Assembly: GCF_000013345.1 (NCBI RefSeq)
Contig: NC_007777.1
Span: 1,488,001 to 1,552,000 of the forward strand
DNA: 64,000 nucleotides
Source of the DNA: Frankia casuarinae
GTDB taxonomy: Bacteria; Actinomycetota; Actinomycetes; Frankiales; Frankiaceae
Reading direction: 5' to 3'
Position numbers and translations under genes: made by a program. The notes beneath the pieces were generated by a model. It saw only the letters and a list, made by a program, of their open reading frames with translations, was not told the DNA's origin and made no database searches. Shown piece after piece: positions 31,904 through 61,805 of this stretch; within the stretch, counting starts at the first letter, position 1, and the number at the start of each line of letters is the position of its first letter.

Positions 31904-32475
31904 TGCCCGTGCCCGACGTTCCGACCGTGCCCGACGTTCCGACCGTGCCCGACGTTCCGACCGTGCCCGACGTTCCGACCGGACCCGACGTTCCGACCGG
32001 ACCCGACGCTTCCACCGTGCCCGACTGGGCGGCGCCGACGGCCGGTGCTCCGGTCGTCGCCCAGATCGCCTTCGCCGTGCCCGGGGACGCCGTACCGGGG
32101 GACGCCGTGCCGGGCGGGGCGGGGTTCGCCGCGGCGGCACGTCCGGCGCTTGACGCGCTCGCCCGGGCCCCGGGATTTCGTGGTGGGCGGATCGCCCAGG
32201 CGCTCGACGAACCCGGCTCGTGGCTGATGACCACCGAGTGGGACGGGCCGGGCGCGTGGCGTCGCGCGTTGTCCGCCTTCGAGGTGCGATACGCGCTGAC
32301 GCCGCTGCTCGTCTTCGCGGTTGACGGGCCTGGCACCTTCGAGGTGCTGGTGTCGGTGGACGGGCCGGGCGGCTCGGCGCGGACCCATCGGTCCGACCGT
32401 ACGCCGGACGCCGACACCGCGGCCCCCGGCGAGCCGCCGCGCTCCGTCGGTGCGCCGGGCGCCGGCCGGCCGTGA
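31903..32475 (+). CDS. Antibiotic biosynthesis monooxygenase-like domain protein with repeat N-terminus
   Basis: 190 residues. Residues 3-38 are a VPDVPT repeat, followed by a second short repeat (PGDAV). The central about 90 residues resemble an ABM dimeric alpha-beta barrel: RPALDALARAPGFRGGRIAQ, SWLMTTEWDGPGAWRRALS, FEVRYALTPLLVF. ABM proteins range from quinol monooxygenases to haem-binding proteins; no catalytic claim can be made. The C-terminal 45 residues are Pro/Ala/Gly-rich. ATG overlaps the uppS stop. The assignment rests on fold pattern only. Confidence 0.6.
   Translation: MPVPDVPTVPDVPTVPDVPTVPDVPTGPDVPTGPDASTVPDWAAPTAGAPVVAQIAFAVPGDAVPGDAVPGGAGFAAAARPALDALARAPGFRGGRIAQALDEPGSWLMTTEWDGPGAWRRALSAFEVRYALTPLLVFAVDGPGTFEVLVSVDGPGGSARTHRSDRTPDADTAAPGEPPRSVGAPGAGRP
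31909..32016 (+). repeat. 18-bp tandem repeat (VPDVPT)
   Basis: Unit GTGCCCGACGTTCCGACC occurs four times exactly (31909-31980), followed by two diverged copies to 32016. Each unit encodes Val/Gly-Pro-Asp-Val-Pro-Thr. The array lies directly at the protein N-terminus. Confidence 0.93.
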
Positions 32476-55799: not shown

Positions 55800-58088
55800 T
55801 CAGCGCGACCGCGAGGGCTCGCTCCGGCGCCAGTAGACGCAGGTCCAGTCGACTTCGATGATCGGCTCGGTCACCCCGTGGGCGGCCCGGTAGTCCTCGA
55901 CTGCCGCCCGGCAGCCAGGAACGGCTCCATAGTCGTCAACGATGCAGAAGCCGCCGTCGGAGAGCTTCGGGTAGAGCGCCGTCAGCGCGTCGGTGGTGCT
56001 CTCGTACATGTCGCCGTCGAGGCGCAGGACCGCGAGGCGCTCGATGGGCGCGGTGGGCAGGGTGTCCCGGAACCAGCCGCGCAGGAAACGGACCTGATCG
56101 TCGAGCAGGCCGTAGCGGCGGAAGTTGTCCCGCACCTGCTCGAGGGACACCGACAGCTCCGCGTACTCGTGGTGGCGGTCGCCGGTGTCGGCGGCGTAGC
56201 GCCCCGGATTGGGCGCGGGCAGGCCGGCGAACGAGTCGGCGACCCAGACCGTGCGGTCGGGGACGCCGTAGGCGGCGAGCACCCCGCGCATGAGGATGCA
56301 CGCGCCGCCCCGCCATACCCCGGTCTCGATGAAGTCGCCTGGGACGCCGTCGACGATGACTCGTTCGGCGCACTCCTGGAGGTTGCGCATCCGGCGGTCG
56401 CCGGTCATCGTGAGCGCCAGCCGTGGCCAGTCCCGGCCGTCGGTCCGGGCGCCCGGTGCGCTCCTCTTGACGATTTCCATTCCCTGGCTGCGGAAGGCTC
56501 GTACCAGCATCCTCTTCGCGCCGGTGCGCGGCTCCCACGCACCGCCGTCCCGACCATCCCAGAGAGAGCAGGTCAGCGTCGCGCGAAGCAGATCGAGGTA
56601 CCGCACCGAGGTATCGGAAAGATCGTGACGGGCGACGGTCGGGTCGTGCGGGGCGACGGTCGGCGTCGTGGTCATCGTGGCTCCTGATGAGAGGGGTGAG
56701 CGCGGAAAGGGGATGGGACCGTGGGCCGTCAGGCTCCGTTCGCTGTCGGGTGAGGCGCCGTCCAGGGGGACGCTGTCGGGTGAGGCGCCTGCCGCGCGGG
56801 CGAGCAGGCGGGTACTGGCCAGGTGCAGCGACACGGCCGAGGCGGTGTAGGTGATCCCCGACACCGCGGCCACGATCGGCAGGCGGCCGTCGTGCAGCGC
56901 CGCCGCGAGGCCGAGCACGGTCGACAGCGCGACCGGGACCTGGATGGCAAGCACCGTGCGGGCGGCACGGAACCCGAGCAGCACATGGGTGAGCAGGTAG
57001 TCGACGGACTGCGGGATGGTCGCCAGCACGAGGACCTGGGCGGCCGGGGCGGCGGGGGCGAACCGCGTGCCGTAGACGATGCGGATGGCCGTCGGCGTGA
57101 CGAGGGCGATCGTGCCCGCCACCGCGGCGGCGAGGGCGACGGTGGCGATGACCGCGCGGCGCACCACCCGGGCCCGCTGCCGGGGATCGACCAGGGTGCG
57201 GAGCCGGCTGAACATCACCATGCCGGTCGCCTGGCAGACGGTCGTGCAGGCGCCGGCGACAGCGACGGCGACGGCGTAGAAGGCCACCTGCTCGGCGGCC
57301 AGGAAGGTGGCGACGAGCAGCATGTCCAGCTTGTAGATGAGCTGGGCCCCGACGACGGTGCCGTAGGCCCCCAGGGCGGACCGCATGAAACGGCGCCGGG
57401 GCAGCAGGCGTCCCGGCCGCGCGAGGGCGGGAAGGCCGCCGAGCACCGCCACGTGGTACCCGAGTGGGGGTAGCAGGGCCGTCACGCCGAGGGTCAGCAT
57501 CCACAAGCCTGGATCGCGGACTCCCCTGCCGGCGAGCGCGGCGAACGCGGCCAGTGTCGCCGCCGCCGGTAGCAACCGGACGAGCTGGAACTCGCCGGTC
57601 ATCCGACCGCGGCGCTGCGCGAGCCCGGCGGCGTTGGAGGCGGCCACGGCCGCGGCGGTGAAGCAGGTCGCGCCCAGCACGGCGACGGCGTCCCAGGCGG
57701 CTCCCCGCCCGGCTCCCGTGCCGCCCGAACGGCCCGGGCCCACAGTGATCAGCATCGGCACCACGGTGAACAGCACCGCGGCGAGCAGCGCCGACGCGAC
57801 GGTCTGGGTGAGCAGCGGGCCGAGCAGCGCGCGGTCCTCACCGTCATCGGTGACCAGCGTCTGGGAAACACCCAGGGCGAACACCATCGCGAGCATGCCC
57901 GCCCAGGTCTGCAGCGCGACGAACTCGCCGCGGGCCACCGGCCCCAGAGCGCGGGCGGCCAGGACGCCGGTCGCGGTCCCGACGACCAGCGTGCCCGCGT
58001 TGCCGGCGAGTACGGCGACGGTGGAGCGGGGAAGCCGGCTCGCGAGCGGGCCGGTCATGACGGCCCGGCGGCTGACGGCTCTGGTCAT
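55800..58088 (-). CDS. Wzx-type flippase fused to TylF/MycF-type methyltransferase
   Basis: A single 762-residue frame. Residues 1 to about 435 form a polysaccharide-biosynthesis flippase of the MATE/MOP superfamily with about 12-14 helices (GNAGTLVVGTATGVLAARAL; KLDMLLVATFLAAEQVAFYA). A linker of about 35 Ser/Pro residues contains a duplicated GASPDS. Residues 472-762 form a TylF-family O-methyltransferase: ETGVWRGGACILMRGVL, VADSFAGLPAPNPGRYAADT, LRLDGDMYESTTDALTALYP, GFCIVDDYGAVPGC. Because Met472 (ATG 56675) has its own ribosome binding site, the methyltransferase may also be made separately. ATG 58088 overlaps the upstream GT4 stop by four bases. Exporting the lipid-linked unit and methylating a sugar would fit the locus. 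Confidence 0.85.
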   Translation of the reverse strand: MTRAVSRRAVMTGPLASRLPRSTVAVLAGNAGTLVVGTATGVLAARALGPVARGEFVALQTWAGMLAMVFALGVSQTLVTDDGEDRALLGPLLTQTVASALLAAVLFTVVPMLITVGPGRSGGTGAGRGAAWDAVAVLGATCFTAAAVAASNAAGLAQRRGRMTGEFQLVRLLPAAATLAAFAALAGRGVRDPGLWMLTLGVTALLPPLGYHVAVLGGLPALARPGRLLPRRRFMRSALGAYGTVVGAQLIYKLDMLLVATFLAAEQVAFYAVAVAVAGACTTVCQATGMVMFSRLRTLVDPRQRARVVRRAVIATVALAAAVAGTIALVTPTAIRIVYGTRFAPAAPAAQVLVLATIPQSVDYLLTHVLLGFRAARTVLAIQVPVALSTVLGLAAALHDGRLPIVAAVSGITYTASAVSLHLASTRLLARAAGASPDSVPLDGASPDSERSLTAHGPIPFPRSPLSSGATMTTTPTVAPHDPTVARHDLSDTSVRYLDLLRATLTCSLWDGRDGGAWEPRTGAKRMLVRAFRSQGMEIVKRSAPGARTDGRDWPRLALTMTGDRRMRNLQECAERVIVDGVPGDFIETGVWRGGACILMRGVLAAYGVPDRTVWVADSFAGLPAPNPGRYAADTGDRHHEYAELSVSLEQVRDNFRRYGLLDDQVRFLRGWFRDTLPTAPIERLAVLRLDGDMYESTTDALTALYPKLSDGGFCIVDDYGAVPGCRAAVEDYRAAHGVTEPIIEVDWTCVYWRRSEPSRSR
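56673..56690 (-). promoter_or_regulatory. Internal ribosome binding site and ATG in the flippase-methyltransferase ORF
   Basis: On the minus strand, CAGGAG is followed after six bases by ATG at 56675, in the same frame, at the junction between the linker and the methyltransferase domain. This supports an independently translated 291-residue methyltransferase, with or without the fused form. Confidence 0.55.
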
Positions 58089-59317
58089 CCGCGCCGAGCG
58101 GTGTCGCGCACATGGGCAACGGCGCGCAGGAAGCCGTCCACGGACGCGGCGAGCTCGATGTCGCCGATCACCTTCTCCGACTCCTGGGCCATCCTGGCCA
58201 GGACGTCGGGGCGCGCGCGCAGCTCCCCGAGGATCCGTGCGAGCGCGTCCACATCGCCGACCGGGTGAACCCGGCCGTTGCGGCCGGGACGGACGTCGTC
58301 GGTCGGGCCGGTGGAGCCCACCCGGTCGCTGACCACCACCGGCAGGCCGCAGAGCACCGCCTCCTTGACCGCCAGCGGATGCGGATCCCGCTCGGCGGGG
58401 TGCAGGTAGAGGTCGCTGGCCGCGTACAGGCGGGGGAGCCGTTCCTGGTCGGCGAATCCGACCATCCGCAACGCGCCGCCGAGCTCGGCGGCCACCGCAT
58501 CGAGAGTGGCGCGCAGCACTCCGTCCCCAGCCATGATCACGATGATTTCCCGGTCGACCGGACCCCGGGGCGTGCGGGTGAGGATGCGCAGTGCGTCCGC
58601 GATGTCGAGGGGGCGCTTCCGAGAGATCATCTTTCCGGCGAACAAGGCGACAAGGGCGTCCGGGGCGATGCCCAGCTCGGCGCGGATCGCCGTTCGATGC
58701 TTGTCCCGATGCGCCAGTACGGCCCGCAGCGCCGTCTCATCGGTGGGATACGGCGTGCGGAACATGCGGGTGGCGGGGACTCCATAGTTGGCCAGGTACG
58801 CCTCGTTGTTGTCGCCGATCGTGAGGAATGCGCTCACTGAACGCATCAGGTGGGGCAGCGTGAGCCGTTTGACGGCGCGGACGGCTGGGGTTCGCTGGCC
58901 GAGGAGCTCGCTGTCACTGATCATGAGGGCGGGTACGCCTCGTCGCCGGCACCAGGCGAGCGCCGCGAGGGAATGGGCGTACCGGTATCCGTAGACGAGC
59001 ACGCATGCGGGGCGCAGTCGGTCCAGGGCCGCCCAGGTCCGGGTAACCATCTGCCGGGTGACGTCGGGCTGCCGCCAGCCAGGGCGCAGCGGCAGGTCCG
59101 CGATGAACTCGTGGTGATAACCGGTTACGACGTCCGATTTCCACTGCACGTCGAGGCCGAAATCCGCGTCGAAGTAGCGTTCCAGGCCCGATCGGGACAG
59201 GAAGAGCACCCGAAGATCCACCTCGTGTTCGGTCAACGCCCGGTACAGCGGCGCGAAATGCTGGATCGCGTGCGATACGACGACTGCCACCGTCGTCGAC
59301 CTGGGGACGGAGGTCAT
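58085..59317 (-). CDS. Glycosyltransferase family 4 protein
   Basis: 410 residues. The N-terminal half begins TTVAVVVSHAIQHFAPLYRA and contains DSELLGQRTPAVRAVKR and FLTIGDNNEAYLANYGVP, segments found in GT4 enzymes that build O-antigen-like glycans. The C-terminal donor domain has VALFAGKMISRKRPLDIADA, RMVGFADQERLPRLYAASDL and HPLAVKEAVLCGLPVVVSDR, which carries the conserved Glu. First gene of the minus-strand operon; the flippase fusion starts inside its stop. The 17-bp array lies upstream in the intergenic region. Confidence 0.88.
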   Translation of the reverse strand: MTSVPRSTTVAVVVSHAIQHFAPLYRALTEHEVDLRVLFLSRSGLERYFDADFGLDVQWKSDVVTGYHHEFIADLPLRPGWRQPDVTRQMVTRTWAALDRLRPACVLVYGYRYAHSLAALAWCRRRGVPALMISDSELLGQRTPAVRAVKRLTLPHLMRSVSAFLTIGDNNEAYLANYGVPATRMFRTPYPTDETALRAVLAHRDKHRTAIRAELGIAPDALVALFAGKMISRKRPLDIADALRILTRTPRGPVDREIIVIMAGDGVLRATLDAVAAELGGALRMVGFADQERLPRLYAASDLYLHPAERDPHPLAVKEAVLCGLPVVVSDRVGSTGPTDDVRPGRNGRVHPVGDVDALARILGELRARPDVLARMAQESEKVIGDIELAASVDGFLRAVAHVRDTARRG

Positions 59318-59461
59318 GAGCCGGCTGTTCCTCCTCGCAATGACCGCTGATCGGACCGGGTGGGCCGTGCGCCAGTACGAATCGATCCGACTCTGTCACT
59401 CAAAGTATTAATCGAGCAACTGTCTGTAGATGCGTGTCGTGGGTCGCGGATCGCGGGTGCC

Positions 59462-59610
59462 GAGTGGCGGTGGGGCCTGAGTGGCGGTGGGGCCTGAGTG
59501 GCGGTGGGGCCTGAGTGGCGGTGGGGCCTGAGTGGCGGTGGGGCCTGAGTGGCGGTGGGGCCTGAGTGGCGGTGGGGCCTGAGTGGCGGTGGGGCCTGAG
59601 TGGCGGTGGG
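59462..59610. repeat. 17-bp tandem array (8 exact copies plus partial)
   Basis: GAGTGGCGGTGGGGCCT is repeated eight times without a mismatch (59462-59597), followed by 13 bases of a ninth copy (59598-59610). It is strongly strand-asymmetric in G and T. There are no spacers, so it is not CRISPR. Exact identity of all copies indicates recent expansion or active homogenisation. Confidence 0.97.
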
Positions 59611-59666: not shown

Positions 59667-59693
59667 CCTTCTATCACTGTCAGTGATAGAAGG
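59667..59693. promoter_or_regulatory. Perfect 27-bp palindrome (candidate operator)
   Basis: CCTTCTATCACTG and CAGTGATAGAAGG are exact reverse complements around a single central T. The core CTATCA...TGATAG resembles tet-operator-like sites of TetR-family repressors, though spacing differs. It lies about 95 bp upstream of the epimerase start. As RNA it would also form a hairpin. No regulator gene is adjacent. Confidence 0.75.
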
Positions 59694-59787
59694 GGGGCTG
59701 TCCGAGGGGCGCGCAGTGTCGTTGTCGACCGATGGCGGTACGTGACGCCCATGGCCCGGCTTTCCTTACTCACGGGTGGTGGTTGGA

Positions 59788-60870
59788 GTGACCAGGCGGG
59801 TCGTCGTCGCCGGCGGGGCCGGCTTCCTCGGAAGCCATCTCTGTGACCGCCTGCTGGCTCGGGGTGCCGAGGTGATCTGCGTCGACAACTTCCTCACCGG
59901 CCGGCCGGGCAACATCGACCATCTTCGGAGGCATGGCGGGTTCCGCCTGCTGCGGCGGGACGTGACCGAGCCGATCGACGTCACTGGCCCGGTCGACGCC
60001 GTGCTGAACTTCGCCTCCCCCGCGTCCCCGGTGGACTATCGGGCCCTGCCCCTGGAGACTCTGTCGGTCGGTGCGTCGGGTACCGCGAACCTGCTGGATC
60101 TGGCATATCGCAAGAACGCCCGGTTCCTTCTGGCCTCCACCTCGGAGGTCTATGGCGACCCCCGGGTCCACCCCCAGCCGGAGGAGTACTGGGGCCACGT
60201 CAATCCGATCGGTCCGAGGAGCATGTACGACGAGGCCAAGCGCTTCGCCGAGGCGTTGACCACCGCCCACCGCGCCACCCACGGCACGTCCACCGGGATC
60301 ATCCGGATCTTCAACACCTATGGGCCGAGGATGCGCGCCGACGACGGGCGTGCCATCCCGACCTTCATTGCGCAGGCCCTGCGTGGCCAAGCCGTCACCG
60401 TTGCGGGCGAGGGTCGCCAGACCCGGTCGCTGTGCTACGTCGACGATCTGGTGGAGGGGGTCGTGCGCATGCTGGACAGCGACCTTCCCGGTCCGGTGAA
60501 TCTCGGCAGTCCCCAGGAGATGACGATCATTGATGCGGCGCGGCTCGTCGTGGAGGTATGCGGGGCTGACGTCCCGATCACCTTCGTTCCGCGACCGCAG
60601 GACGATCCCACCGTGCGCTGCCCCGACATCACGCTGGCGCGGGAGGCGCTTGGATGGCGACCCCTGGTGGACGTACGGGACGGGCTTGCCCGCACCGTGG
60701 CCTGGTTCCACGGACGTGTCGAGCGGCCGCGGTCCCCGTGGCTGGTGCCCCGTCAGGAGCCGCCGGCAGGCTCGGACGTGCTGGGCGGTGACCGCGACGG
60801 GTTCACCGTGCGGACTGGTGAACCGGGGCTGGCGGTCAAGGTGGGTGAGGACGACGCGACGGATTCGTGA
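59788..60870 (+). CDS. NAD-dependent epimerase/UDP-glucuronate decarboxylase-like (UXS type)
   Basis: A short-chain dehydrogenase of the extended type. Residues 1-310 match UDP-xylose synthase/UDP-glucuronate decarboxylases: [72 protein letters not shown], the YxxxK pair in [10 protein letters not shown] (near 147), and [12 protein letters not shown]. It probably converts UDP-glucuronate to UDP-xylose or a related nucleotide sugar for the locus. The last about 45 residues are an unrelated polar tail. GTG 59788 and GTG 59776 are both possible. It lies downstream of the palindrome and array. Confidence 0.88.
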
Positions 60871-60914: not shown

Positions 60915-61805
60915 GTGACCCAGGATGGCTCTGGAAACCTCGCGGCGATCTCCGGGCATCGTGCCGGTCCGCTGCGCTGGCGGCTGGCGGGACGTCTGGC
61001 CGCGGGCCTTCCCAGCCTGCGCGGTCGTGGCTGGCCGACCCGATGGATGCAGGACCCTGCGAACACCTACAGCGGTCCCCGCTATCGGCCACCAGCGCTC
61101 GCGCCGGTGTTCGACGCGGTTCTGCGCCCCGGTGACTGTTGCTATGACGTCGCTGCTGGCCTCGGGATCTACACCCTGTGGGCGGCCGGGGTAGTGGGAG
61201 CGGCCGGCGAGGTGCATGCCTTCGAGGAAGCACCGCGCACCGGGGCGACGCTCGCGGCACTGGTCGAGCGCAACCGGCTCTCGAGTGTCCACCTGTCCAG
61301 TGCCGCGGTGGGTGCCAGTGCCGCGGTGGGTGCCAGTGCCGCGGTGGGTGCCAGTGCCGCGGTGGGCGTCGCGCCCATCCCGGGCGCGACGCCCATCACC
61401 CTCGATGCCCACGCCGCGCGGCACCGACCGCCCGCCCTGGTCAGGATCGGTGGTGAGGCCGAGAGCCTCGACGTGCTGCGCGGCGCCGGTGAGCTCCTAC
61501 GGGCGCATCGGCCGGCCCTCCTGCTGGCGATGCCGCCCCGCCCCGCCCGCCGCGGCGGAGACCGTTCCGGCGAGAACAGCCACCGCGGCGAAGGGGATCG
61601 GCGGGCTGCCGGGGAGAATCCCGGTGAGCTGGTCTCGCTGCTGGCCGCCGCCGGCTACCGGATCCTCAATCTGAGCCGGCGCGGGCTGACCGGGCAGGGC
61701 GTCTTCTCGCCGAACGTGCTCGCGCTCCACGACGGCTGGGAGCGTTTCGAACAGGTCGCCGTCACCCTGCGGCGTACGCCGCTGCCCCGCGACCGGACGG
61801 CGTGA
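60915..61805 (+). CDS. FkbM-like methyltransferase with internal hexapeptide repeats
   Basis: 296 residues, GTG start. The SAM-binding region is CYDVAAGLGIYTLWAAGVVG and GEVHAFEEAPRTGATLAALV, similar to FkbM-type enzymes. Just after it, where the fold would continue with strand 4, an array of GASAAV hexapeptides is inserted (residues about 128-151). ALVRIGGEAESLDVLRGAGE and LLRAHRPALLLAMP follow, then an Arg/Gly/Glu-rich insertion. The repeats and insertions raise doubt about activity. It sits between the epimerase and the polymerase on the same strand. Assigned by motif I and context. Confidence 0.7.
   Translation: MTQDGSGNLAAISGHRAGPLRWRLAGRLAAGLPSLRGRGWPTRWMQDPANTYSGPRYRPPALAPVFDAVLRPGDCCYDVAAGLGIYTLWAAGVVGAAGEVHAFEEAPRTGATLAALVERNRLSSVHLSSAAVGASAAVGASAAVGASAAVGVAPIPGATPITLDAHAARHRPPALVRIGGEAESLDVLRGAGELLRAHRPALLLAMPPRPARRGGDRSGENSHRGEGDRRAAGENPGELVSLLAAAGYRILNLSRRGLTGQGVFSPNVLALHDGWERFEQVAVTLRRTPLPRDRTA
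61297..61368 (+). repeat. 18-bp tandem repeat inside FkbM-like gene (GASAAV)
   Basis: Unit CCAGTGCCGCGGTGGGTG occurs four times in tandem from 61297, the fourth with one change near its end. Each adds six residues in frame. It lies inside the methyltransferase core rather than a terminus. Confidence 0.93.

Follow-up and report, generated by a model that had tools for sequence, protein, structure and literature searches.

We found a 17-bp minisatellite in the spacer that separates two divergent glycan operons of Frankia casuarinae; it is probably a neutral intergenic array of the VNTR type that arose by slippage or recombination, expanded recently and has little or no effect on expression. The array lies in a window of 64,000 nucleotides (positions 1488001–1552000 of a genome assembled as a single contig of 5,433,628 bases). 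At window positions 59462–59610, Tandem Repeats Finder gave a period of 17, 8.8 copies, 100% match, no indels and a score of 298, and direct read-out of the 149 bp confirmed the eight identical tandem copies described in an earlier sequence-only reading. An array of 17 bp × 8.8 at 100% match falls within what is called a bacterial minisatellite or VNTR, namely head-to-tail, near-identical units of ~10–100 bp. Four observations support the neutral reading: the copies are exact, the corresponding spacers of related genomes have no array, the spacing with the array subtracted is similar to that of the relatives, and the genome has a large background of such arrays. The array thus looks like an ordinary minisatellite, real and recent in appearance, one among roughly a thousand estimated for the genome. 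The features discussed below are collected in Table 1.

Table 1 Array, conserved spacer elements and neighbouring genes, in window coordinates.
Feature	Coordinates	Strand	Basis
17-bp minisatellite: eight exact GAGTGGCGGTGGGGCCT units and a 13-bp partial ninth, GAGTGGCGGTGGG	59462..59610	no strand	Direct read-out
Element A: conserved block of relatively high AT content, shared with related genomes	59388..59442	no strand	Comparison with relatives
Element B: perfect palindrome with 13-bp arms, CCTTCTATCACTGTCAGTGATAGAAGG	59667..59693	no strand	Read-out and comparison with relatives
GT4-type glycosyltransferase, first gene of the minus-strand cluster	58085..59317	-	Pfam PF00534, 1.5e-20
Fusion-like ORF: weak polysaccharide-export domain and TylF-type methyltransferase	55800..58088	-	PF05711, 3.4e-123; PF13440, 4.4e-5
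NAD-dependent sugar-nucleotide epimerase/dehydratase	59776..60870	+	Pfam PF01370, 2.1e-51
FkbM-type methyltransferase	60915..61805	+	TIGR01444, 3.9e-9, just under its cut-off

The array cannot be a product of chance, because 0 comparable arrays arose when 1.2 Mb of the F. casuarinae genome was simulated with a first-order model; likewise, 0 dinucleotide shuffles within the window equalled the observed match count. A whole-genome search found no second tandem occurrence of the unit, and the five other sites that matched it, none of which was adjacent to another, each had 2 mismatches. A dispersed repeat family was therefore rejected, the unit being tandem at one genomic site only. Several other classes were also considered and set aside. 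The array read-out contained no spacers between the repeats and the Pfam-identified neighbours are glycan genes, which is not what a CRISPR or iteron array would present. The ORFs crossing the array had neither the GC3 pattern of this genome's real genes nor a Pfam match, in agreement with the earlier statement that it is not coding. A mobile-element or plasmid origin was rejected, as there was no plasmid match and no exact match in viral or genome contigs, these two contig scans being strict because they were limited to exact matches. A structured RNA was set aside, as no Rfam family was recognized (the top match, mir-1910 with an E value of 0.18, is at chance level), and the blastn similarities in other genomes were short, G-rich and low-scoring and did not represent homologous loci. 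The array itself is G-rich, with a unit G4Hunter score of 1.25 that exceeded those of all other sampled stretches of the window.

The array is placed between the glycosyltransferase gene and the epimerase/dehydratase gene, ~145–180 bp from either start. Orthologues of the former share 69–72% identity in four congeners and those of the latter 71–75%; three GTG start options exist for the epimerase/dehydratase (59776, 59779 and 59788), of which 59788 gave the best alignment with relatives. This arrangement bears out the earlier placement of the array at a divergent point near a palindrome. Two conserved elements flank it. The Element A consensus, TCAACGCACTGTAGATATGTGTCG, was located in the window at about 59416–59439 with 6 mismatches, and in relatives with 0–2 mismatches (G006, G003, G011 and G009) or 4 (G004). 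In the window, Element B has turned into a perfect 27-bp palindrome, which occurs once in the genome; relatives retain mainly its right half, GTGATAGA, and carry it upstream of the epimerase gene. The Element B consensus, GTGACTGTCCGTGATAGA, had 0–2 mismatches in G006, G003, G009 and G010 and 3 in the window, and was weak in G011. We take the palindrome core, TATCACTGTCAGTGATA, to resemble operators of the TetR and lambda-repressor kinds. From their conservation, position and relative AT-richness, Element A is the putative promoter region of the minus-strand glycosyltransferase operon and Element B a putative operator/promoter element on the epimerase side; a scan of the spacer found no sigma-70 consensus promoter or terminator.

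The epimerase gene is divergently adjacent to the glycosyltransferase gene in G006, G011 and G003, as in the window, and the array is absent from the syntenic spacers of these three genomes. No orthologous spacer contained even a single copy of the 17-bp unit, the best match in any rotation being 11–12 of 17 positions, the level of random stretches. Since the copies are exact and the relatives' syntenic spacers are array-free, the recent copy-number change proposed in the sequence-only reading is well supported. The array is located between A and B and outside both. A and B are 233 bp apart in the window, or 84 bp apart when the 149 bp of the array are subtracted; the corresponding distances in the array-free G006, G003 and G009 are 70, 78 and 39 bp, respectively. 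Because the array-free gap resembles those of the relatives, the array is, on this comparison of spacers, a lineage-specific expansion added to a spacer whose length was already loose and tolerated.

We then placed the array against the background of the genome, by sampling 20-kb stretches at 60 evenly spaced sites, which together cover 1.2 Mb or 22% of the genome, and counting arrays whose period, copy number and match were at least 7, 2.8 and 85%, respectively. The sample contained 215 arrays (179/Mb), which extrapolates to ~970 for the whole genome; near-exact arrays numbered 82/Mb, and 25 sampled arrays had at least five near-exact copies and a period of at least 12. Placed among these by score, the focal array would come second of 216, which makes it large, yet within the range of the genome. 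Periods were mostly 9–21 bp, mainly 9, 12, 15 and 18, with peaks at 18, 15 and 9. The period was divisible by 3 in 132 of 147 coding arrays versus 27 of 68 intergenic ones, a contrast that fits a general expansion process followed by filtering by reading frame. Divergent promoter spacers contained no excess of intergenic arrays (8 observed versus 12.9 expected with a crude gene caller), so it is unremarkable in this genome to meet one at a divergent point.

These data bear on the second part of the sequence-only reading, according to which changes in array length would alter promoter spacing and switch surface-glycan expression. Such a phase-variation switch of one or both glycan operons is, unlike the recent copy-number change, not supported by these data, and we consider it unlikely. 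Its appeal lies in the position of the array, as a contingency locus could plausibly sit in the spacer between divergent glycan promoters. The phase-variable simple sequence repeats of the Haemophilus/Neisseria type have units of 1–5 bp and lie between promoter elements. The focal array resembles them as a divergent-spacer repeat near surface-glycan genes, but its unit is 17 bp long and it is apparently not between −35 and −10. Being outside A and B, it would leave the core −35/−10 spacing unchanged if these elements, whose positions as promoters are themselves inferred, are the promoters; moreover, the A–B distance differs among array-free relatives and divergent spacers have no excess of arrays. 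An actinobacterial precedent for tandem arrays upstream of genes exists in the promoter tandem repeats of M. tuberculosis, whose copy number varies within isogenic populations and has been proposed to alter promoter strength (PMC12817950). At lpdA, cysG-efpA and dop, however, the repeats are promoter sequence located 12–29 bp upstream of the gene, with units of 54–58 bp for cysG and lpdA (PMC12817950), and their variation is documented, whereas the 17-bp array lies ~145–180 bp away and between, not within, the conserved elements.

The G-rich unit could also affect transcription, by adopting a quadruplex or another non-B DNA structure that insulates the divergent promoters or dampens their supercoiling coupling in a manner graded by array length. 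In favour of this explanation, the unit ranks by G4Hunter score within the highest 6% of random genomic units and within the highest 10% of array units. We nevertheless regard the explanation as decidedly improbable: the array is not conserved in relatives, the array units of the genome are only mildly enriched in such sequences (11% reach a G4Hunter score of at least 1.2 versus 6% of random units), and the palindrome confounds the single-strand fold energy. There is very little to be expected from an iteron-like tandem binding site of a regulator. Although 17 bp is a plausible site size and the repeats are direct, the unit has no dyad, the orthologous spacers do not contain a single copy and the genome has no near-exact sites elsewhere. 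An assembly artefact is scarcely credible. Tandem arrays are error-prone, and the short-read position of a deletion in hypF2 needed Sanger correction (PMC5745019), but assemblies collapse arrays more often than they expand them, the genome is a single contig and 149 bp is short enough for one Sanger or 250-bp read.

The neutral minisatellite is thus the reading that we prefer. Replication slippage or unequal recombination would recently have enlarged the array, at an unconstrained mid-spacer site where it is flanked by A and B but enters neither, with the divergent glycan operons on either side; it may still be variable at present and is probably a polymorphic VNTR. We infer this mechanism, the present instability and the nil or small effect on expression from the observations given above. 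Bacterial VNTR loci such as the mycobacterial MIRU-VNTRs are similar in being intergenic, with short, near-identical head-to-tail units and a lineage-specific copy number, but the MIRU units are longer than 17 bp, and the focal unit is not dispersed in the genome. The array is therefore a candidate strain-typing marker that could distinguish closely related Frankia isolates.

Two single-contig congeners had array densities of 152 and 185/Mb, similar to that of this genome, and 10–45 arrays/Mb were counted in a second genus of the family and in two further families. Long near-exact arrays (at least five copies and a period of at least 12) numbered 0 in 600 kb of the two congeners versus 25 in 1.2 Mb here (p ~6e-5), a contrast that serves as a lead only, as the cut-off was picked after inspection of the data and the sequencing methods used for the congeners may have influenced the counts. 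The minisatellites of this genome seem to exceed those of the two sampled complete congeners in length and exactness. The abundance of arrays is not explained by loss of NucS or SbcD, as both genes are present. In laboratory CcI3, hypF2 carries a Sanger-confirmed 9-bp tandem-repeat deletion relative to the reference (PMC5745019), and pyrF recurrently lost a single G from a seven-G run in mutagenised cells under selection (PMC11946415), which indicates that repeats do change in CcI3. It is conceivable, though we hold it only tentatively, that the lineage has a genome-wide, still active process of minisatellite expansion which makes long exact arrays of a kind missing from the two complete congeners sampled, that the focal array is one of its products and that some arrays alter expression or proteins. 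With its density of long exact arrays, this genome could offer a way to test what causes minisatellites to expand in bacteria, for which congeners with mostly short or degenerate arrays would be a suitable comparison.

Some further observations were made in the glycan locus, which also contains a low-molecular-weight tyrosine phosphatase and a weak Wzy-like protein. Downstream of the glycosyltransferase gene, the 762-aa ORF may be a fusion; in the stretches read, the matches in relatives span one part or the other only. The FkbM-type methyltransferase may be decaying, because its orthologues in G006 and G011 have a segment of ~25–30 residues and a KIDVEG motif region that it lacks. Positions 61297–61366 inside this gene form an exact in-frame array of 18 bp × 3.9 that encodes SAAVGA repeats. 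Elsewhere in the window, positions 31907–32025 carry an 18-bp × 6.6 array with 94% match in a region called coding.
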